Source: Gammaproteobacteria bacterium
GTDB taxonomy: Bacteria > Pseudomonadota > Gammaproteobacteria > Eutrophobiales > Eutrophobiaceae
Assembly: GCA_026710545.1 (NCBI GenBank)
Contig: JAPOQU010000090.1
Location: 1 to 64,000 of the forward strand
Reading direction: 5' to 3'
DNA: 64,000 nt
Shown here: positions 43,465 through 57,834 of the stretch, one piece after another
How positions within the stretch are numbered: position 1 is the stretch's first letter
Layout: each line of letters starts with the position of its first letter
Made by a program: the position numbers and the translations under genes
Notes under the pieces: generated by a model
The model's input: only the letters and a program-made list of their open reading frames with translations
What the model was told of the DNA's origin: nothing
The model's database searches: none

Positions 43465-43537
43465 TGGGCCGTCAGGGATTCGAACCCTGGACCTTGGGAT
43501 TAAGAGTCCCCTGCTCTACCAGCTAAGCTAACGGCCC
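43465..43537 (-). tRNA. tRNA-Lys (CTT)
   Basis: A 73-base cloverleaf with acceptor GGGCCGT/ACGGCCC, D-loop 'agcttagctggtagagca', anticodon loop CTCTTAA (anticodon CTT) and T-arm 'ggttcgaatcc'. CCA is not encoded; 'tttt' follows the discriminator. This is the probable attachment site of the adjacent integrase, because island insertion typically rebuilds a tRNA 3' end. Confidence 0.96.
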
Positions 43538-43554
43538 AATTGAATAATTAAATC

Positions 43555-43631
43555 TGGGGTGAGTGATGGGATTTGAACCCACGACCACCGGAACCACAAT
43601 CCGGCGCTCTACCAGCTGAGCTACACTCACC
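43555..43631 (-). tRNA. tRNA-His (GTG)
   Basis: Cloverleaf with the extra 5' G(-1) opposite C73 that marks tRNA-His, acceptor GTGAGTG/CACTCAC, anticodon loop TTGTGGT (GTG), and an encoded CCA. Confidence 0.97.
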
Positions 43632-43690
43632 ATACCTGTGCCGGTCCCCGGCTTACTGCCTGCCGGGGCAGGCAGAGACCACACGATAAT

Positions 43691-43767
43691 TGGCGCGCCC
43701 GAGAGGACTCGAACCTCTAACCCTCGGCTTAGAAGGCCGATGCTCTATCCGGTTGAGCTACGAGCGC
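43691..43767 (-). tRNA. tRNA-Arg (TCT)
   Basis: Acceptor GCGCTCG/CGGGCGC, anticodon loop CTTCTAA (TCT), T-loop 'ggttcgagtcc', encoded CCA. A G-rich spacer separates it from tRNA-His. Confidence 0.97.
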
Positions 43768-43795
43768 AACTCTTCGTCAGTAAAATATATAAAAT

Positions 43796-43872
43796 TGGTC
43801 GGGGCAGAGGGATTTGAACCCCCGACCCTCTGCTCCCAAAGCAGATGCGCTACCAGACTGCGCCATGCCCCG
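43796..43872 (-). tRNA. tRNA-Pro (TGG)
   Basis: Acceptor CGGGGCA/TGCCCCG, anticodon loop CTTTGGG (TGG), T-loop 'ggttcaaatcc', encoded CCA. It is first in the array, transcribed towards Arg, His and Lys. Confidence 0.97.
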
Positions 43873-46180: not shown

Positions 46181-46256
46181 TATCCGCAGATGACGCAGAT
46201 TACCGCAGATTTACTTTTTACATTATATCTGCGGTAATCTGCGTCATCTGCGGATA
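46181..46256. repeat. Perfect 30-bp inverted repeat between convergent lpxH and ampE
   Basis: The arms (46181-46210 and 46227-46256) are built from repeated 'cgcagat' words ('tatccgcagatgacgcagat'...). A 16-base T-rich loop separates them. The location suits a bidirectional terminator. The same sequence family occurs at 51873, 52903 and 53084. Confidence 0.85.
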
Positions 46257-48084: not shown

Positions 48085-48936
48085 ATGACGACGCGAGTCC
48101 TGCCTGCTGATATAGCCAGCACCGTACGGCGTGCCTTGAATGAAGACCTGGGGACGGGAGACCTCACGGCTAAACTGGTCCCGCAGGGTGCAACGAGTGC
48201 GGCGGCTGTGCTCTGCCGTGACAGTGCAATCCTGTGCGGGGTTGCCTGGTTTTCCGAAGTATTCAGGCAACTGGACGAGGGTGTCAGTATCAGCTGGCGC
48301 TGCGAGGACGGTGACGCCGTCAAACCCGGGCAGACCGTTTGCACCCTCTCGGGATCCACCCGGTCATTGCTCAGCGGCGAGCGGACCGCATTGAATTTTC
48401 TGCAGTTGTTATCGGGCACGGCAACCACCACCAGGGAGTACGTGACTGCCATAGCCCATACGGCAACCCGGTTACTGGACACGCGCAAAACCCTGCCCGG
48501 CCTGCGCTCGGCACAAAAATACGCGGTATTGTGCGGCGGCGGGACAAACCACCGCATGGGACTGTACGATGCAATGCTGATCAAGGAGAACCATATCAGG
48601 GCGAGCGGGTCCATCACCGGCGCGCTCAAGCAGGCTAAAACGACACACCGGTACATGGAAATCGAAGTGGAAAACGAGCAGGAACTCGAGGAAGCGCTCA
48701 CTGCCGGCGCTGACGCCGTACTGCTGGATAATTTTACCCTGGACCAGGTCAGGCGGGCAGTGCAACTCAATGACGGGAGGGCGCGCCTGGAAGTCTCGGG
48801 TGGCGTGGATTTTGCCGATCTTGCGGCCCTGGCCGCTACCGGGGTCGACTTCATCTCGGTGGGGGCGCTCACCAAGAACGTGCGCGCAATCGATTTTTCG
48901 ATGTTGCTGTCAGACCCGGACGCCGGCCCTGCATGA
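48085..48936 (+). CDS. nadC: Nicotinate-nucleotide pyrophosphorylase (carboxylating)
   Basis: 283 residues. Makes nicotinate mononucleotide from quinolinate and PRPP. Visible signatures are 'LNEDLGTGDLTAKLVP', 'GERTALNFLQLLSGTATTTREYV', 'LLDTRKTLPGLRSAQKYAVLCGGGTNHRMGLYDAMLIKENH' and 'LEVSGGVDFADLAALAATGVDFISVGALTKN'. The gene next to ampDE, but facing away, is a common gammaproteobacterial arrangement. It overlaps the histidine kinase by 4 bases. Confidence 0.98.
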   Translation: MTTRVLPADIASTVRRALNEDLGTGDLTAKLVPQGATSAAAVLCRDSAILCGVAWFSEVFRQLDEGVSISWRCEDGDAVKPGQTVCTLSGSTRSLLSGERTALNFLQLLSGTATTTREYVTAIAHTATRLLDTRKTLPGLRSAQKYAVLCGGGTNHRMGLYDAMLIKENHIRASGSITGALKQAKTTHRYMEIEVENEQELEEALTAGADAVLLDNFTLDQVRRAVQLNDGRARLEVSGGVDFADLAALAATGVDFISVGALTKNVRAIDFSMLLSDPDAGPA

Positions 48937-50288
48937 GTCTGCGTTTCCGCCTCAACCTGCTGCTTACACTGTTGTTTATCGCCGTCCTGTGCGCCGGCAG
49001 CAGTTACGCGATCATTTCCGCGCGCAAGACCGTCACCGAAGAAATTCAATCCGCAGCGCTGCTGACCTCCAACATGCTTGGCGCATCCATCTCCACGATA
49101 CAGGGTTCGGAAGACCAGGGCCTGTATGACCGGTTGTTATCCGAACTGAGCAAACTGGAAACGACCCGCCACCTGCAAATCCTGATCTCGCTTGACCTGG
49201 GTGTAGGCACCGCACTGCCGCTGCAACCTGCCCTGCCCCTTGATGCCGATGCGCCGGCCTGGTTCGTCAACCTGGTCAAACCGCCTGTCATGGAATTCAA
49301 GCGGGTATTTACCAGTACGGGAGGTACCGGCACGGAGATCATCATCCGCGCCGATCCTTCGGCGGAGATAGACGAAGCCTGGCTGGAGACGCGCAATTTT
49401 CTCCTGTTGCTGCTGTTGTTCACCGCGTTGGCCAACCTGTTGATTTATATCATCCTGGGCCGGGACCTGGCGCCCATCGAGGCCATCCTCACCGGGCTGG
49501 AGCGCATTGAAAAAGGCGATTACCGGCTGCAACTGCCGAAATTCACCTCCATTGAGTTCTCGCGCATTTCCGCACGCTTCAACCACCTGGCAGGGGTATT
49601 ACTGCAAAACAGGGAAGAAAACAGGCGCCTGACCCGGCGTTCACTGGAAATCCAGGAAGAAGAACGGCGCCGCTTGGCGCAGGAATTACACGATGAACTG
49701 GGCCAGTCCCTGAGCGCGATAAAGGCGATTGCCACGTCCATGGAACAACCCGGCGCGAAAAATGGCCGGCATGCCATCGAGAGTGCGGGGCTCATCAAGA
49801 CCACCGCCGATAACATGTACGGTGCGGCGCGGCGCATGATCCGCCAGTTGCGGCCCGCAGTACTGGATGAACTGGGACTGGTGCCGGCCGTGCAACAACA
49901 GGTGGACGAGTGGAACTCGGCCCACGCCGATACGTTTTGCCACCTGGATATCAAGGCGGACTGCTCCGCCGCGGCTGATGCCGTAAAGATCAATATCTAC
50001 CGCATCATCCAGGAGAGCCTGACCAATGTTGCCCGCCATTCATCGGCAAAAAATGTATACATATCCCTGGCAAGCTCAGAGGATAAAAGCAGCAGCCTGG
50101 AGCTGAAAATCGGTGACGACGGCCAGGGGTTTGACCCGGACAGGACGCGCAAGGGCATGGGTCTGCCGGGGATCCAGGAACGGGTGGACAGCATGGGAGG
50201 TGAGTTCCGGCTGGTCTCAGGCAGGAATAATGGTGTAAATATCACTATAATCCTGCCTTTAATACCTGATGAAACGGCGGATACCTGA
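48933..50288 (+). CDS. NarX/DegS-type sensor histidine kinase
   Basis: 451 residues. There are two membrane helices ('LNLLLTLLFIAVLCAGSSYAI' and 'FLLLLLLFTALANLLIYIILG') around a ~130-residue periplasmic domain. Then come HAMP ('RDLAPIEAILTGLERIEKGDYRLQLP'), a coiled coil, a HisKA_3 box with the phosphorylated His ('RRRLAQELHDELGQSLSAIKAIA') and a HATPase domain ('GLPGIQERVDSMGGEF'). The periplasmic domain is of no recognised type. It is followed by its response regulator after 47 bases and coupled to nadC by overlap. Confidence 0.94.
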   Translation: MSLRFRLNLLLTLLFIAVLCAGSSYAIISARKTVTEEIQSAALLTSNMLGASISTIQGSEDQGLYDRLLSELSKLETTRHLQILISLDLGVGTALPLQPALPLDADAPAWFVNLVKPPVMEFKRVFTSTGGTGTEIIIRADPSAEIDEAWLETRNFLLLLLLFTALANLLIYIILGRDLAPIEAILTGLERIEKGDYRLQLPKFTSIEFSRISARFNHLAGVLLQNREENRRLTRRSLEIQEEERRRLAQELHDELGQSLSAIKAIATSMEQPGAKNGRHAIESAGLIKTTADNMYGAARRMIRQLRPAVLDELGLVPAVQQQVDEWNSAHADTFCHLDIKADCSAAADAVKINIYRIIQESLTNVARHSSAKNVYISLASSEDKSSSLELKIGDDGQGFDPDRTRKGMGLPGIQERVDSMGGEFRLVSGRNNGVNITIILPLIPDETADT

Positions 50289-50335: not shown

Positions 50336-50986
50336 ATGCAGAGCGTAAATAAAAAAATCAGGATTCTCCTGGTCGATGACCATGCCGTGGTACGCGCCGG
50401 CTATCAAATGCTGCTGGAGCAATCGGACAAGCTTGAAATAGTTGCCGAGGCATCCAGCGGCGAGCAGGCCAGCAAACTGTTTACCGACGTGGACCCGGAC
50501 ATAGTCGTCATGGACCTGTCATTGCCGGGTATCAGCGGGCTGGAGGCAATCAGGCGTATTATCCGCAAGGACCCGAATGCCAAAGTCCTGGTGTTCACCA
50601 TGCATGAAGACACGGTATTCGTGGACCAGGCCCTGCGCGCCGGCGCCCGGGGCTACCTCAGCAAGAGCAGCGCCCCGAAAACCCTGATCAAGGCCATTGA
50701 AGAGATCGCCCGGGGCGGGGTCTATATCGATGACCGGCTGGTACAACACCTGGCGTTCCAGAAGGCGCGCGATGAAATCGGGCCGTTTTCCAGCCTGTCC
50801 ACCAGGGAATTTGAAATATTCTGCCTGCTGGCGGAGGGTTTGAATACCAATGAGATTGCCGCCCGCCTGTCCATCGGCTACAAAACGGTGGCCAACTACA
50901 GCTCTCAGATAAAAAATAAGCTGCAGGTCAATACCACCGCCGAACTGGCCCGGTTGGCAATCCGCCACAACATCCTGCAGGCCTGA
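50336..50986 (+). CDS. NarL/FixJ-family response regulator
   Basis: 216 residues. Receiver domain with 'ILLVDDHAVVRAGY', phospho-acceptor Asp in 'DIVVMDLSLPGISG', switch Thr/Lys in 'VFTMHED' and 'GYLSKSSAPKTLI'. A LuxR-type helix-turn-helix follows ('LSTREFEIFCLLAEGLNTNEIAARLSIGYKTVANYSSQIKNKL'). Partner of the kinase just upstream. The regulon is not evident. Confidence 0.96.
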   Translation: MQSVNKKIRILLVDDHAVVRAGYQMLLEQSDKLEIVAEASSGEQASKLFTDVDPDIVVMDLSLPGISGLEAIRRIIRKDPNAKVLVFTMHEDTVFVDQALRAGARGYLSKSSAPKTLIKAIEEIARGGVYIDDRLVQHLAFQKARDEIGPFSSLSTREFEIFCLLAEGLNTNEIAARLSIGYKTVANYSSQIKNKLQVNTTAELARLAIRHNILQA

Positions 50987-51176: not shown

Positions 51177-51800
51177 TTACAGCTTGCTCTTCACCAGTTC
51201 ATAGACCGTTTCCGTGGCGGCGCCGGCGCCGGACAGCACGAACTCGAGTTTCGCGCGCCTGTCGTTTACGAATTCCGCATCCCTGATCCCGCCTATGTTG
51301 ATATAAACGTTCAACGCCGCGCTGCGCAGTGCGGCATGGGCCGCCAGCACCGCGACGCCGGCGTCGCTGATCACGTTCAGATTGCCTTTTTCGGCTACCG
51401 GACGGCACAGTTCGATCACGTCCGCGCACAGTTGCGCACAGGCAAGCGGCACATCCGTAGCCTCTTTCAGGGCCGCCTGGATAGTCTGCGAGCGCCGGGC
51501 CTTTTCCTCTTCGGTCTCCCGGGCCATGCCGTAAGCCGCCATTACCTGGTCGAACACGTCAACGTCGGCCTGGATCATGCCGGTCAGCCGTTCGCGTAAC
51601 GCTTCGGATTGTTCCAGGAATCCCTGCATCTCCTCCTCGACCTCTTCGTATTTCTTTTTCCCGACGGTAAGATTGGCCACCATACTGACCAGCGCCGCGC
51701 CCATCGCCCCCATGATCGCCGCCGCGCTGCCGCCCCCGGGGGTGGACGCACTGGAGGCAAGCTGGTCGAGAAATGTCTGTAGTTGTTGTTCCTTGAACAT
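51177..51800 (-). CDS. fchA: Cyclodeaminase/methenyl-H4F cyclohydrolase (FchA family)
   Basis: 207 residues of the all-helical cyclodeaminase/cyclohydrolase family. 'SASTPGGGSAAAIMGAMGAALVSMVANLTVGKKKYEEVEEEM' is the signature region and 'DVDVFDQVMAAYGM' holds the conserved Asp. As FchA it interconverts methenyl- and formyl-tetrahydrofolate. The divergent neighbour encodes an MtdA-like dehydrogenase, the enzyme of the previous step, which favours this role over histidine-degradation cyclodeaminase. Confidence 0.9.
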   Translation of the reverse strand: MFKEQQLQTFLDQLASSASTPGGGSAAAIMGAMGAALVSMVANLTVGKKKYEEVEEEMQGFLEQSEALRERLTGMIQADVDVFDQVMAAYGMARETEEEKARRSQTIQAALKEATDVPLACAQLCADVIELCRPVAEKGNLNVISDAGVAVLAAHAALRSAALNVYINIGGIRDAEFVNDRRAKLEFVLSGAGAATETVYELVKSKL

Positions 51801-52041
51801 GGGTGTTACCTCTTTACAGGTTTCAGTGTTGTAATGTAAGATAATTTCAATGCGCCGGGGAGTATAACGGATTTATCCGCAGATGACGCAGATGTGCGCT
51901 GTTTAAGCTTTCCCGCTACTTCCCCTGACCTGTGTCACACTGAACCGGTATGGTTTCCGCACGGTTTCAATCAACGTAACGTACCAGGCGCTGCTGCTGC
52001 AACAATAGCGGACGACTTTCCAATACCCAGAGGAGAATGTA

Positions 52042-52899
52042 ATGAAAAAACTTCTGTTCCAGCTGGATACCGACCAGCATGCCGCCGTGTTCGATACGGT
52101 GGTCGGATATGACGGCGGGGCCGACCATGTGATCGGCCATGGCGGCTGCACGCCTGATAACGTGCGCGCCCTGGTAGACGGCGCCATCTTTACCCGCAGC
52201 CCGAAAGAAAAGAAAAATACCGCCTTGTTCATCGGCGGCAGCGACATGGTTGCCGGCGAAAAACTGCTGGATGCAGTGCAAAAGGTCTTTTTTGGCAATT
52301 TTCGCGTCTCCGTCATGATCGACAGCAACGGCAGCAACACCACGGCCGCTGCCGCGGCCGCCAAACTCATGAGCAGCGGGGGAGTAACCGGCAAGAAAGT
52401 GGTGATCCTGGGAGGGACAGGTCCGGTCGGCCAGCGCGCCGCGGTCATGCTGACCCGGGAAGGCGCCGATGTGGTGTTATGTTCCCGCGGCCAGGAACGC
52501 GCCCGGGCTGCCTGCGATGCGATCAAGGATCGTTTCGGCGTTGATATCACCCCCCTGGGCACCGCAACCAGTGAGGACCGCGCACGGGCCGTAGAGGATG
52601 CACAGATCGTCATCGCCACAGGCGCCGCAGGCGTGCAGTTGCTCGACCGGGCGGCGTGGGAGAACAACGCCGCTATCGAGATGCTTGCCGACGCCAACGC
52701 CACGCCGCCGTTAGGGATAGAAGGCGTCGACATGATGGACCGGGGCGAAGTCCGCAGCGGCAAGACCTGCTGGGGGGCAATCGGTTTCGGTACCCTGAAA
52801 CTCGCCCTGCACCGGGCCTGCATTGCAAAGCTGTTCGAAAGCAACGACCAGGTGTTCGACGCCGAGGAGATCTTCGCACTGGCCAAGACGATGTCATGA
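52042..52899 (+). CDS. mtdA: Methylene-tetrahydrofolate/H4MPT dehydrogenase, MtdA-like
   Basis: 285 residues. The family is recognised from 'KLLFQLDTDQHAAVFDTVVGYDGGADHV', 'VMIDSNGSNTTAAAAAAKLM', the Rossmann loop 'VVILGGTGPVGQRAAVML' and the ending 'HRACIAKLFESNDQVFDAEEIFALAK'. MtdA (NADP, methylene-H4F and -H4MPT) and MtdB (methylene-H4MPT) are close relatives. The fchA neighbour points to MtdA. No H4MPT genes are seen here. A good ribosome-binding site ('agaggagaatgta') precedes ATG 52042. Confidence 0.88.
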   Translation: MKKLLFQLDTDQHAAVFDTVVGYDGGADHVIGHGGCTPDNVRALVDGAIFTRSPKEKKNTALFIGGSDMVAGEKLLDAVQKVFFGNFRVSVMIDSNGSNTTAAAAAAKLMSSGGVTGKKVVILGGTGPVGQRAAVMLTREGADVVLCSRGQERARAACDAIKDRFGVDITPLGTATSEDRARAVEDAQIVIATGAAGVQLLDRAAWENNAAIEMLADANATPPLGIEGVDMMDRGEVRSGKTCWGAIGFGTLKLALHRACIAKLFESNDQVFDAEEIFALAKTMS

Positions 52900-52902
52900 T
52901 TT

Positions 52903-53137
52903 TTATCCGCAGATGACGCAGATTATCGCAGATGATTTATTCAATGCAAAAAACGGTGAGACTGATACCGCATTGGAGCAGGAATAGACGCTTGTTTTAA
53001 TTGCAACATACACAAAATACGGCAACTTCAGGATTTGCCATGTATGTTGAAAACCACTTCTTCCCTGCAACGAATTTTATTTTATCTGCGTTCATCTGCG
53101 TAATCTGCGGATGAATCACTGCGCTACCTGCGGATAC
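52903..53137. repeat. Opposed copies of the 'ccgcagatgacgcagat' repeat
   Basis: 'tatccgcagatgacgcagat' starts near 52905 and inverse copies lie at 53084-53137, with a ~150-base spacer holding no gene. A single related copy is at 51873-51893 in front of mtdA. These are variants of the perfect inverted repeat at 46181-46256. Confidence 0.75.
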
Positions 53138-53281
53138 TTCTATCCAGGGACGGGAAAAATTCCCGGTCTTTTATTCTTTTTTCCCGTATTCACTTGTAGA
53201 TCAAATAGCTACATTACACATCTTCGGATGTATGTAAGCACTTTAATCGTGATCTACTAAAACGCCGGGGATATTGATCCA

Positions 53282-55822
53282 ATGAACAGAACAGGCATCG
53301 CCGTATTTGCATCGTTAATCACCTGTTGTTCCCTGCCCTCTGCAAGCATCGGGCAGGAAGTCGTCGAAGAGTTGGTTGTTATCGGTGTCACTCCTTCCCG
53401 CGACGGGGTGGGGTTGCCGGAAGAAAAAATACCTTACCGGGTGCAATCCTCCAGTGCGGAGGATATCGAGCGCTCGCAGAGCCTGGACATTTCCGATTTT
53501 CTCCGGCACAACCTGGCCAGCGTCACCCACAACGATGCCCAGAACAACCCGTTGCAACCGGATATACAGTACCGCGGCTTTACCGCCTCTCCCCTGCTGG
53601 GCCTGTCGCAGGGCATGTCGGTTTACCAGAACGGCGTGCGCATCAACGAACCCCTGGGAGACACGGTGAACTGGGACATGTTGCCCGAATCGGCGATACA
53701 CAGCATTGACCTCATCGGCGGCGCCAACCCCCTGTTCGGTTTGAACACGGTGGGCGGCGCGTTATCGGTGAACATGAAGGACGGTTTCAACAGCGACGGT
53801 CACAGTGTGGAAGTCTACGGCGGTTCTTTTGAGCGTATCGTCACGTCCGCGGAAAGCGGCGGCAACAACGGCTCCCTGGGCTATTACGCAAACGTCAGTT
53901 ATTTCGATGAGGACGGCTGGCGCGACGAATCGCCGTCCGATGCGCTCAACCTCTACGGCAGCCTGAGCTGGCGCGGCGCCATGTCACGCCTGAACCTGAA
54001 TGTACAGCACGGCGACAGCAAACTGATCGGCAACGGCGCGATTCCCGAAGAACTGCTGGCCGATGACCGCGATGCCATCTTTACCGCCCCCGACATCACC
54101 GAGAACGACCTCATCATGGTCAGCCTGGACGGCAGCCACAACTTCAACGACAAGGTAAAGCTCAACGTCAACTTTTTCTACCGGGAAAACGACGGTTCCT
54201 CGTTCAACGGCGACGGCAGCGAATTCGGCATCGAGTTCGATGATGAAGGCATGTGGCTGCTGGTCGAGGGAGATGATGATGACGACGATGACGACGACAA
54301 TGGCCACGACGACGATGACGATGATAACGGCCACGACGACGATGATGACGATAACGGCAATGGCAATGGCGATGATGACAGCGGCAACGGCCATGATGAT
54401 GACGATGACGACAATGGCCATGACGACGATGACGGCAACGGCCATGACGACGATGATGGCGAAGAGCTGGGAGGCGTTGAAACATACGGCGACGGCGATC
54501 CTTCAGACCTTGACATCATTGCCATCAACAATACCAGCAGCCGCAGGCAGGAAAGCTACGGCACGGACATCCAGTTGACGTTCCTGAACGACCTGGTGGG
54601 CATGGAAAACCAGTTGATCATGGGATTCACCTATTACAAGGGGGAAAGCACGTTCCGCTCCGAAACGGAAATAGCCGGCCTCGACCCCGTGACCCGCAGC
54701 ACCGTGGGCCTGGGTACCGGCGTATTCGTTGAAGAGGCCAGGACCAACCTGGAAACAGAAACGGAGACGACCAGTTTCTACTTCATGAATGCCATGAGCC
54801 TGTCGGAACAGCTCACCCTGGTCGTGTCCGGGCGCCTGAACAACACCTTGATCGACCTCCAGGATCTCTCCGGAGAGCGCCCGGAACTGAACGGCGAACA
54901 CGACTTCTTCCGTTTCAACCCGGCGCTGGGTCTGACATTTCAACCTACCGACAATATGAATATCTACGGCAGTTACAGCGAATCGAACCGCGCACCGACG
55001 CCTATCGAACTTGCCTGCAACGACAGTGTCTATACCCGTGCGCAGGCGTTCGCGGACGACCCGGATGACGTGGAGTTCGAGTGCCGCCTGCCCAACGCAT
55101 TCCTGGCCGACCCACCCTTGAATGACGTCGTGAGCAAGAGTTTTGAAGCCGGCGTGCGCGGGGATATCGGGCTGGTGGATTACCACCTGGGTTTCTTCCA
55201 CACCACCAACCATGACGATATCCTGTTCCAGACCACCGGCAGGGCTACCGGCCTGTTCGCCAACGTGGACAAGACCCAGCACCTGGGTCTTGAGGGCGCG
55301 TTGAACGGCTCGACCGGAAACCTCAACTGGTTCCTGGCCTACACATACCTGGAAGCGACTTTTGAGGACGAGTTCACCGCGGTCGAGAACGAAAACCACC
55401 CGCTGGGAGATGATATCGAGGTGGAACAAGGGGATCGTATTCCGGGGCTGCCCGAACATACCCTGAAACTGGGCGCCGATTACCTGCTGTTGGAACGCCT
55501 CAATGTCGGTTTCGACGTGGCCTACACGTCGAAAAAAGAACTGCGCGGCAACGAGGGCAACGACAGGGATGACGAGGGTTTCCTGAACCCGGTTGGCGGT
55601 TACGCCGTTGTCAACCTGCGCGCCAATTACAAGGTGAATGACAACATCCAAATCTTCGGCCGGGTCACCAACCTGTTTGATGAGGACTACGAGAGCTTCG
55701 GACTGCTGGGCGAGGAACCCGATGAGGTGGCGGTCGAAGAGTTTGAAGACTACGAGAGCCCGCGTTTTCTCGGCCCCGGCGCACCCCGGGCCGGTTTTGT
55801 CGGTGTCAAGCTAAGTATATAG
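53282..55822 (+). CDS. TonB-dependent receptor with Asp/Asn/Gly/His-rich insert
   Basis: 846 residues. Signal peptide '[25 protein letters not shown]', a TonB-box-like 'EELVVIGVT', plug domain ('[31 protein letters not shown]') and barrel ending '[12 protein letters not shown]'. Between about residues 331 and 394 lies a run of units such as '[20 protein letters not shown]' and '[12 protein letters not shown]'. It falls in an extracellular loop or between barrel strands and would carry some 40 carboxylates plus His, suited to binding divalent or trivalent cations. A perfect terminator follows. The substrate is unknown; a metal or metallophore is the natural guess. Confidence 0.9.
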
Positions 55823-55843
55823 CGTATAACCTCTGCCGCATGA

Positions 55844-55872
55844 GGGACGGATCAAGATCCGTCCCTTTTTTT
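55844..55872 (+). terminator. Rho-independent terminator after the TonB receptor
   Basis: Stem 'gggacggatc' / 'gatccgtccc' with a 2-base loop, followed by seven T. It stands 22 bases after the receptor stop and ahead of folE. Confidence 0.95.
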
Positions 55873-55935: not shown

Positions 55936-56478
55936 ATGGAACAGGCCTACGCAGATATCATCAGAGCAATAGACGACCTTGAACGGACAGGATTGAAAGA
56001 CACACCAGGGCGCGCGGCGGAAGCCATGCGCTTCCTGACCCGCGGCTACAACCAGAACCTGGAAGAAATCATCAACAATGCGAGGTTTCCCACGGAACGG
56101 AGCGAAATGGTCGTCGTCCAGGATATCGAACTCTACTCGCTGTGCGAACACCACCTGCTGCCGTTTGTCGGCAAGTGCCACGTGGCTTATATCCCCAACA
56201 ACTTCGTCATCGGACTGTCCAAGATTGCCCGCATCGTCGATATGTATGCGCGCCGCCTGCAGAACCAGGAAAACCTTACCATGGACATCGCCCGGGCCAT
56301 GAACGCCGCGACAGACGTTGAAGACGTCGCGGTGATCATCGAATCCAAACACCTGTGCATGATGATGCGCGGGGTGGAAAAACAGAATTCCGTGATGAAA
56401 ACCTCGGCCATGCTGGGTATTTTCAGGTCCAACCCCAGCACGCGCGCCGAACTGTTCTCCCTGCTGAAATCAACCTGA
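55936..56478 (+). CDS. folE: GTP cyclohydrolase I
   Basis: 180 residues from ATG 55936; the track start at 55840 runs through the terminator and is rejected. Zinc ligands and catalytic region are seen in '[23 protein letters not shown]' and '[26 protein letters not shown]'. It makes dihydroneopterin triphosphate, the first step to folate. This fits the folate-linked C1 genes nearby. Confidence 0.97.
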
Positions 56479-57100: not shown

Positions 57101-57156
57101 TTGACAAAAACGCCTCTATAGCCTATGCTATGGCCTATGCTATGGCCTATGCCATG
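57101..57156 (+). promoter_or_regulatory. vapBC-1 promoter with three 12-bp operator repeats
   Basis: TTGACA at 57101, 17 bases, then TATGCT at 57124. The unit 'gcctatgctatg' is repeated exactly twice and once with one change (57121-57156), covering the -10 box. It is likely the VapB/VapBC autorepression site. A ribosome-binding site 'aaggagg' follows. Confidence 0.7.
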
Positions 57157-57175: not shown

Positions 57176-57415
57176 ATGTTGCCTGAACGCTATGTCAGTT
57201 TATTCCGTAACGGCCGTAACCAGGCCTTGCGCATACCCCGGGAGTTTGAGTTGCCGGCCAGGAAAGCTATTATCCGCAAGGATGGTGACAAACTCATCAT
57301 AGAGCCTGTCAGGACTGACGGATTACTCACCTTGCTGGCTTCCCTGGAGAATATCGAGACTACCTTTCCGGAAATGGATGAAGCATTGCTGCCTCCCGAC
57401 CACGTGGAATTGTAA
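57176..57415 (+). CDS. vapB: VapB antitoxin (module 1)
   Basis: 79 residues with the SpoVT/AbrB swapped-hairpin pattern ('YVSLFRNGRNQALRIPREFELPARKAIIRKDGDKLIIEPV') and a C-terminal tail that would wrap the toxin ('LASLENIETTFPEMDEALLPP'). Strong ribosome-binding site. Followed at 2 bases by vapC. Confidence 0.92.
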   Translation: MLPERYVSLFRNGRNQALRIPREFELPARKAIIRKDGDKLIIEPVRTDGLLTLLASLENIETTFPEMDEALLPPDHVEL

Positions 57416-57417
57416 TC

Positions 57418-57834
57418 TTGAAGCCGGCTTATCTCCTGGATACCAATGTGCTGTCGGATTTGGTGCGCCGCCCCCATGGTGTCATCACAAAGCGAATTTC
57501 GCTGGAGGGCGAAGACAATGTCTGCACCAGTATCATTGTGGCATCCGAATTACGTTTCGGCGCCCGCAAGCGTGGTTCCGAACAGTTGACCCGGCAACTT
57601 GACCTGGTCCTCTCGGCCATACAAGTCATGCCGTTCGAGGCGCCTGCCGACCATCATTACGCAAAGATTCGCGTTTATCTCGAAGAACGGGGCACGCCCA
57701 TAGGCCCGAATGATATGCTCGTCGCAGCACAGGTCCTTGCGCTGGACTGCACACTGGTCACGAGGAATGTACGGGAGTTTTCCCGTGTGCCCGCATTGAA
57801 AGTCGATGACTGGTCAGGAACTTCCCCGCACTAA
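57418..57834 (+). CDS. vapC: VapC PIN-domain toxin (module 1)
   Basis: 138 residues from TTG 57418. PIN acidic residues: 'YLLDTNVLSDLV', 'IIVASELRFGARKRGSEQL', 'IGPNDMLVAAQVLALDCTLVTRNVREF'. It is an RNase that usually cuts tRNA or rRNA. Confidence 0.94.
   Translation: MKPAYLLDTNVLSDLVRRPHGVITKRISLEGEDNVCTSIIVASELRFGARKRGSEQLTRQLDLVLSAIQVMPFEAPADHHYAKIRVYLEERGTPIGPNDMLVAAQVLALDCTLVTRNVREFSRVPALKVDDWSGTSPH

Follow-up and report, generated by a model that had tools for sequence, protein, structure and literature searches.

A TonB-dependent receptor with a poly-aspartate loop belongs to a family that co-occurs with XoxF in Gammaproteobacteria and is a candidate lanthanide receptor

In the Gammaproteobacteria sampled, the presence of one family of TonB-dependent receptors matches that of XoxF, the lanthanide-dependent methanol dehydrogenase, in almost every genome. 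Every member examined has an acidic outer loop, and in a single genus this loop carries a poly-Asp extension. The member described here lies in a 64,000-nucleotide stretch of DNA (the window) from a bacterium that, going by the names of related records, appears to be marine. The receptor is likely to be a lanthanide receptor, and the tract may act as a metal-collecting antenna, although we hold this second point at somewhat under an even chance. The reading that joins both, in which the receptor serves XoxF, the tract is a polyanionic antenna, and a kinase and regulator of the MxaY type control expression, is one we lean toward slightly. These observations bear on how bacteria gather lanthanides, of which seawater contains ∼1e-11 M (PMC11996626). 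The family offers a possible sequence marker of lanthanide use in uncultured marine bacteria, the regulator pair and a palindrome form a candidate regulator and operator, and a gene-encoded poly-Asp peptide on the cell surface may be of interest for rare-earth recovery.

The receptor gene (window 53282–55822, + strand) encodes a protein of 846 residues with a plug and a 22-strand barrel. Both Pfam domains are well above their cut-offs (TonB_dep_Rec_b-barrel PF00593, 153.2 bits, cut-off of 27; Plug PF07715, 49.4 bits, cut-off of 23.9). An AlphaFold2 model from 74 family sequences has a mean pLDDT of 83, a pTM of 0.83, and 22 barrel strands, an earlier model from 26 sequences has an identical layout, and the best Foldseek matches are all plug-closed 22-strand TonB-dependent receptors. 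In the model, a tract rich in Asp, Asn, Gly, and His sits between strand 7 (residues 292–319) and strand 8 (residues 413–434), in the fourth long loop. Residues 331–397 have pLDDT values below 50, and the tract is predicted to be disordered. Sidedness rests on strand order. In the usual topology of these receptors, odd-to-even strand connections are outside and short turns are inside, which puts the tract in extracellular loop 4 of the model and hence not on the periplasmic side. The surface exposure proposed in the initial annotation is consistent with this prediction. Two anchors conserved across the family frame the loop: FNGDGSEF (residues 308–315; window 54203–54226, + strand) directly precedes it, with N309, G310, and D311 invariant among the 74 sequences, and AINN (residues 414–417; 54521–54532, + strand), with N417 invariant, marks its re-entry into the barrel.

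The tract itself spans residues 330–393 (window 54269–54460, + strand), so the insert that had been claimed is real and lies two bases from where it was first placed. Its 64 residues comprise 38 Asp, 12 Gly, 8 Asn, 5 His, and 1 Ser, with no Glu, Lys, or Arg. The units are, in order, D9NGH, D6NGH, D6NGNGNG, D3SGNGH, D6NGH, D4GNGH, and D4G; the unit D4-6-N-G-H given earlier was thus roughly right, with Asp runs that actually range from three to nine. At the DNA level, Tandem Repeats Finder (TRF) reports a 27-nucleotide period with 6.5 imperfect copies and a score of 162. Shuffling the receptor 2,000 times gave at most 21 Asp per 64 residues versus the 38 observed, and the runner-up among long ORFs of the window has 12. 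The tract resembles lanmodulin, a near neighbor of one family member in Methylobacterium nodulans, in its Asp-rich set of potential lanthanide ligands. Unlike lanmodulin, it neither forms a folded domain nor has the spacing of EF-hands; a search of the tract for the EF-hand or lanmodulin-type loop D-x-D-x-D-G-x5-E found none, as there is no Glu and the grammar is one of Asp runs and NGH.

Across six genomes of the genus, the tract is 64 (window), 66, 47, 77, 89, and 22 residues long through gain and loss of repeats, as had been anticipated from the repetitive DNA. It is kept in four other genomes besides that of the window, in each case at one site and with the same Asp/NGH grammar, and the sixth genome (G004) has a 22-residue acidic version with no His. 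The insert is accordingly not missing from close homologs. Five identical units in genome G005 indicate recent duplication. The five tract bearers form a single clade with G004 as sister, implying that the repeat grew inside this genus. Assembly often goes wrong at simple repeats, and several of the genomes carry a metagenome-assembly label, but an in-frame tract at one site in five separate genomes, between conserved flanks, makes a sequencing, assembly, or frame artifact extremely improbable and, exact copy number aside, refutes it in kind.

The tract is dispensable for the function of the receptor, given that G004 has only 22 residues without His and that all other family members lack the repeat. 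This same observation favors a different reading, in which the receptor takes up lanthanides or something else and the tract is a tolerated linker, expanded by slippage, that binds Ca2+ and Mg2+ nonspecifically or shields against phages or toxins but has no role in uptake. A length that no two genomes of the genus share, the identical units in G005, and the predicted disorder in the model are all as expected of such a linker. Against it, the position and grammar of the tract are constant in five genomes. Codon usage also bears on the question: the tracts of the genus hold 228 Asp codons (100 GAT and 128 GAC) and no Glu codon, and because third positions mix T and C freely yet never yield Glu, the sequences suggest that Asp itself is kept. 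The codons are not independent, however, because repeats such as those in G005 are homogenized, which weakens the argument. A further point against the linker is the acidity of the loop throughout the family. In 88 family sequences from which loop 4 could be excised, its net charge is always −5 or lower (range −5 to −75; median −20), and the median acidic fraction is 0.26 in the loop versus 0.14 in whole proteins. Outside the genus, loop 4 is present without the repeat and usually contains a pair of Cys together with motifs like EEDDLEELGLDDDDVC or EDQNGN. We consider the linker a real possibility, albeit one that we would on the whole bet against.

One indication of substrate is the distribution of the family relative to XoxF. 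In an even sample of 184 genomes across the Gammaproteobacteria, the receptor is present in 18, XoxF, queried with the copy of the window's own genome, in 18, and both in 17 (Fisher P = 8e-22, with genomes counted as independent and no formal correction for phylogeny). Although related genomes are not independent of one another, the agreement extends over many families: 15 have the receptor, 15 have XoxF, and 14 are common to both. The one genome with the receptor only (G180) encodes a divergent DYD dehydrogenase and, directly after the receptor (62 nucleotides downstream), a LanPepSY-like protein; just one genome (G102) has XoxF without the receptor. No link to XoxF was seen for a siderophore-receptor family used as a control in these genomes (XoxF in 3 of 16 carriers versus 15 of 168 others; P = 0.19).

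The window's own genome fits the pattern. Its XoxF is encoded on contig C60 (39772–41751, − strand), has the motif TPHDEWDYDGINEM of the DYD type, and matches best in the PDB to the lanthanide-dependent XoxF 6DAM (E = 8.7e-217). There is also a second DYD-type PQQ dehydrogenase. The contig differs from that of the receptor and the two genes are thus not adjacent.

Neighborhoods of relatives likewise point to lanthanides. In 9 of 80 contigs, as well as in three genomes of the window organism's own family, the receptor adjoins a gene for a small secreted-type protein with a double PepSY architecture. These neighbors match PDB 9VY3 and seven sister entries (E = 1.5e-54), which, on the basis of the PDB title, we take to be lanthanide-binding LanPepSY. 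LanPepSY is described as a periplasmic protein of 19 kDa that contains two PepSY domains (PMC12482762). In M. nodulans, a relative with 33% identity is two genes from a lanmodulin-like protein (6MI5, E = 5e-38), and in three relatives XoxF itself adjoins the receptor. A DxD motif in PQQ dehydrogenases marks lanthanide dependence, and relatives in Variovorax and Sphingobium are near PQQ dehydrogenases that have it (lanthanide type, DFD). Together, the co-occurrence with XoxF and the LanPepSY, lanmodulin, XoxF, and lanthanide-type dehydrogenase neighbors make lanthanide the best-read substrate, and lanthanide, one of the metals first suggested for the tract, is well supported for the receptor family. 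Some features count against the lanthanide and antenna reading: most members of the family lack the repeat, a search of the window's genome and its genus found no LanPepSY, and XoxF is not adjacent in the window organism. In about 12 relatives among the 80 contigs, a glycerophosphodiester phosphodiesterase gene is downstream of and convergent with the receptor.

Co-occurrence with XoxF would also be expected of a receptor that serves some other import requirement of XoxF bearers, for example that for PQQ, which XoxF and related dehydrogenases use as cofactor. A PqqU-like role is in line with the top fold match in the PDB, which is PqqU with PQQ (TM score of 0.85 on target, 16% identity), with the co-occurrence of the receptor and PQQ dehydrogenases, and with a relative in Burkholderia multivorans that is divergent from a PQQ dehydrogenase gene and near pqqABCDE. 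However, although PqqU/YncD is the nearest solved fold, the receptor scores 79.4 bits with the PqqU model NF041535, for which the curated cut-off is 1,200, and its loop is strongly acidic while PQQ is anionic. The own genome encodes pqqE (563 bits, cut-off of 381), which makes synthesis of PQQ by the organism itself probable. Among genomes with any methanol- or ethanol-type PQQ dehydrogenase, XoxF is present in 17 of the 18 that have the receptor and in 1 of the 14 that lack it, and LanPepSY and lanmodulin neighbors indicate a metal. PQQ import is therefore a distant prospect, less probable than uptake of some other metal.

That other alternative, in which the receptor takes a different metal or chelate (iron-siderophore, Cu, Zn, Ni, Co, or cobalamin) and the His of the NGH units aid binding of a softer metal, is itself unlikely. 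It draws on the five His in the tract, on a general similarity to models of siderophore and B12 receptors, and on a plasmid of Ideonella dechloratans (L223). There, a relative is beside a kinase-regulator pair and a few kb from copper genes of the MbnP/MbnM type and a second TonB receptor; given these copper or methanobactin-type surroundings, some relatives may use another substrate. Conversely, the models score far below their cut-offs (TonB-dependent siderophore receptor TIGR01783, 116.5 bits versus 223.5; vitamin B12 receptor BtuB TIGR01779, 71.8 bits versus 599.7), the siderophore-receptor control does not track XoxF, and His residues are outnumbered by the 38 Asp. The heme receptor subfamily was also below its cut-off. 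No cobalamin or other riboswitch was found in an Rfam search of the window, in which the sole matches are four tRNAs; their genes form a cluster (43465–43872, − strand). Zinc receptors of the ZnuD type, which are TonB-dependent and have a His/Asp-rich extracellular loop, are similar in concept, in that such a loop would bind metal. They differ from the case here in the excess of Asp over His and in the XoxF and lanthanide context, and no signs of a zinc regulon were seen in the neighborhood of the receptor.

Because lanthanide TonB-dependent receptors are known, the receptor would be of an already known kind. LanA, LutH, and TonB_Ln are, by their published descriptions rather than by sequence, comparable in being TonB-dependent and tied to XoxF. 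LanA is mainly gammaproteobacterial (PMC12482762), and TonB_Ln of Methylobacterium aquaticum 22A is an experimentally supported lanthanide receptor encoded upstream of the two-component system mxcQE (PMC9260416, PMC9301485). The latter arrangement resembles the kinase-regulator neighbors that are frequent in this family. What sets the receptor apart is its Asp-repeat loop, which the available descriptions of these three systems do not mention, and a literature search on aspartate-rich loops of TonB receptors found no precedent for a poly-Asp antenna.

Genes around the receptor in the window suggest how it may be controlled. A sensor histidine kinase with a LapD/MoxY periplasmic domain (48933–50288, + strand; PF16448, 33.1 bits, cut-off of 25), in which HisKA_3 and HATPase_c are likewise above their cut-offs, is followed by its partner, a response regulator identified as LuxR-type by domain search (50336–50986, + strand). 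The pair is next to nadC (48085–48936) and 3–4 kb before the receptor, and homologous pairs directly adjoin the receptor in about ten relatives. The same LapD/MoxY domain is found in MxaY (PMC6115532), the lanthanide-switch kinase of Methylomicrobium buryatense (PMC5018670); residue 147 is Asp in the window kinase versus Glu in MxaY (PMC5018670), with the positions not aligned. The kinase and regulator probably control C1 and lanthanide genes. As the initial annotation had noted, the receptor is near fchA, encoding methenyltetrahydrofolate cyclohydrolase (51177–51800, − strand; NF045657, 339 bits, cut-off of 275), and an mtdA-like gene for a methylene-tetrahydromethanopterin/tetrahydrofolate dehydrogenase, assigned by its Mpt_N domain (52042–52899, + strand; PF09176). 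The former passes its NCBIfam cut-off, and mtdA, mostly with fchA, is also near the receptor in nine relatives. The next gene after the receptor is folE, encoding GTP cyclohydrolase I (55936–56478, + strand; domain and family profiles). The receptor is probably transcribed apart from it because a strong hairpin with a T run, resembling an intrinsic terminator, lies between them right after the receptor (55842–55867, + strand).

An alignment of upstream regions from six members of the genus has one well-kept block, the palindrome GGGAAAAATTCCC followed by a T-rich stretch, with one member reading AGGAAAAATTCCC instead. In the window the palindrome is about 120 nucleotides upstream of the receptor start (53152–53164). 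Its core, GGGAA-N3-TTCCC, is upstream of 14 of 99 nonredundant receptors versus 0.04 expected from flanks, and with the discovery genus left out it is at 9 of 96 loci versus 0.04 expected, or 21 of 96 versus 1.5 when one mismatch is allowed. The sole exact background copy in 1.15 Mb is before the kinase gene of one relative's locus (L101). A plain terminator of mtdA is a less likely explanation because GGGAA and TTCCC with a three-nucleotide spacer recur before distant receptors and that kinase gene. A natural reading of this pattern is that GGGAA-N3-TTCCC is a candidate operator of the LuxR-type regulator.

These elements allow a mechanism to be proposed. Like LanA, LutH, and TonB_Ln, the receptor would supply the XoxF-type methanol dehydrogenase by bringing Ln3+, either free or complexed with a ligand, into the periplasm. 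Loop 4, acidic family-wide, would have been drawn out in the genus to a disordered Asp brush of 47–89 residues, in which clustered short carboxylates may bind hard cations weakly and in number. In seawater these would be mostly Ca2+ and Mg2+, to be displaced by Ln3+, so that the tract could raise the local concentration of Ln3+ at the opening of the receptor before handing it to the plug. Expression would probably be governed by the MxaY-type kinase and LuxR-type regulator, perhaps via GGGAA-N3-TTCCC. Because a tract in seawater would start out loaded with Ca2+ and Mg2+, charge density or the receptor proper would have to provide the selectivity. This also counts against an antenna: there is no defined site in a disordered poly-Asp chain, and Ca2+ is at ∼10 mM in seawater versus ∼1e-11 M for lanthanides (PMC11996626). 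The full account, in which a length-tuned disordered poly-Asp antenna gathers seawater rare earths for XoxF under the MxaY-type system and the palindromic operator, is put forward tentatively, as less likely than not.

Several other features were observed. On contig C102 of the window's own genome (G000), near position 103251 (L120:1500–1750), a separate reading frame has a run of at least 11 Asp followed by a long DGDGDG repeat, possibly part of a calcium-binding surface protein. A dispersed repeat, ATCCGCAGATGACGCAGAT, has five intergenic copies in both orientations in the surroundings of the receptor cluster versus 0.03 expected (window 46182–46200, 46237–46255, 51875–51893, 52905–52923, and 53094–53112) and may be a REP-like element. 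Downstream of the receptor, a 12-bp tandem repeat (57116–57156) precedes a small MazE-like antitoxin gene (57176–57418; PF04014), and the short ORF that follows may encode its toxin.
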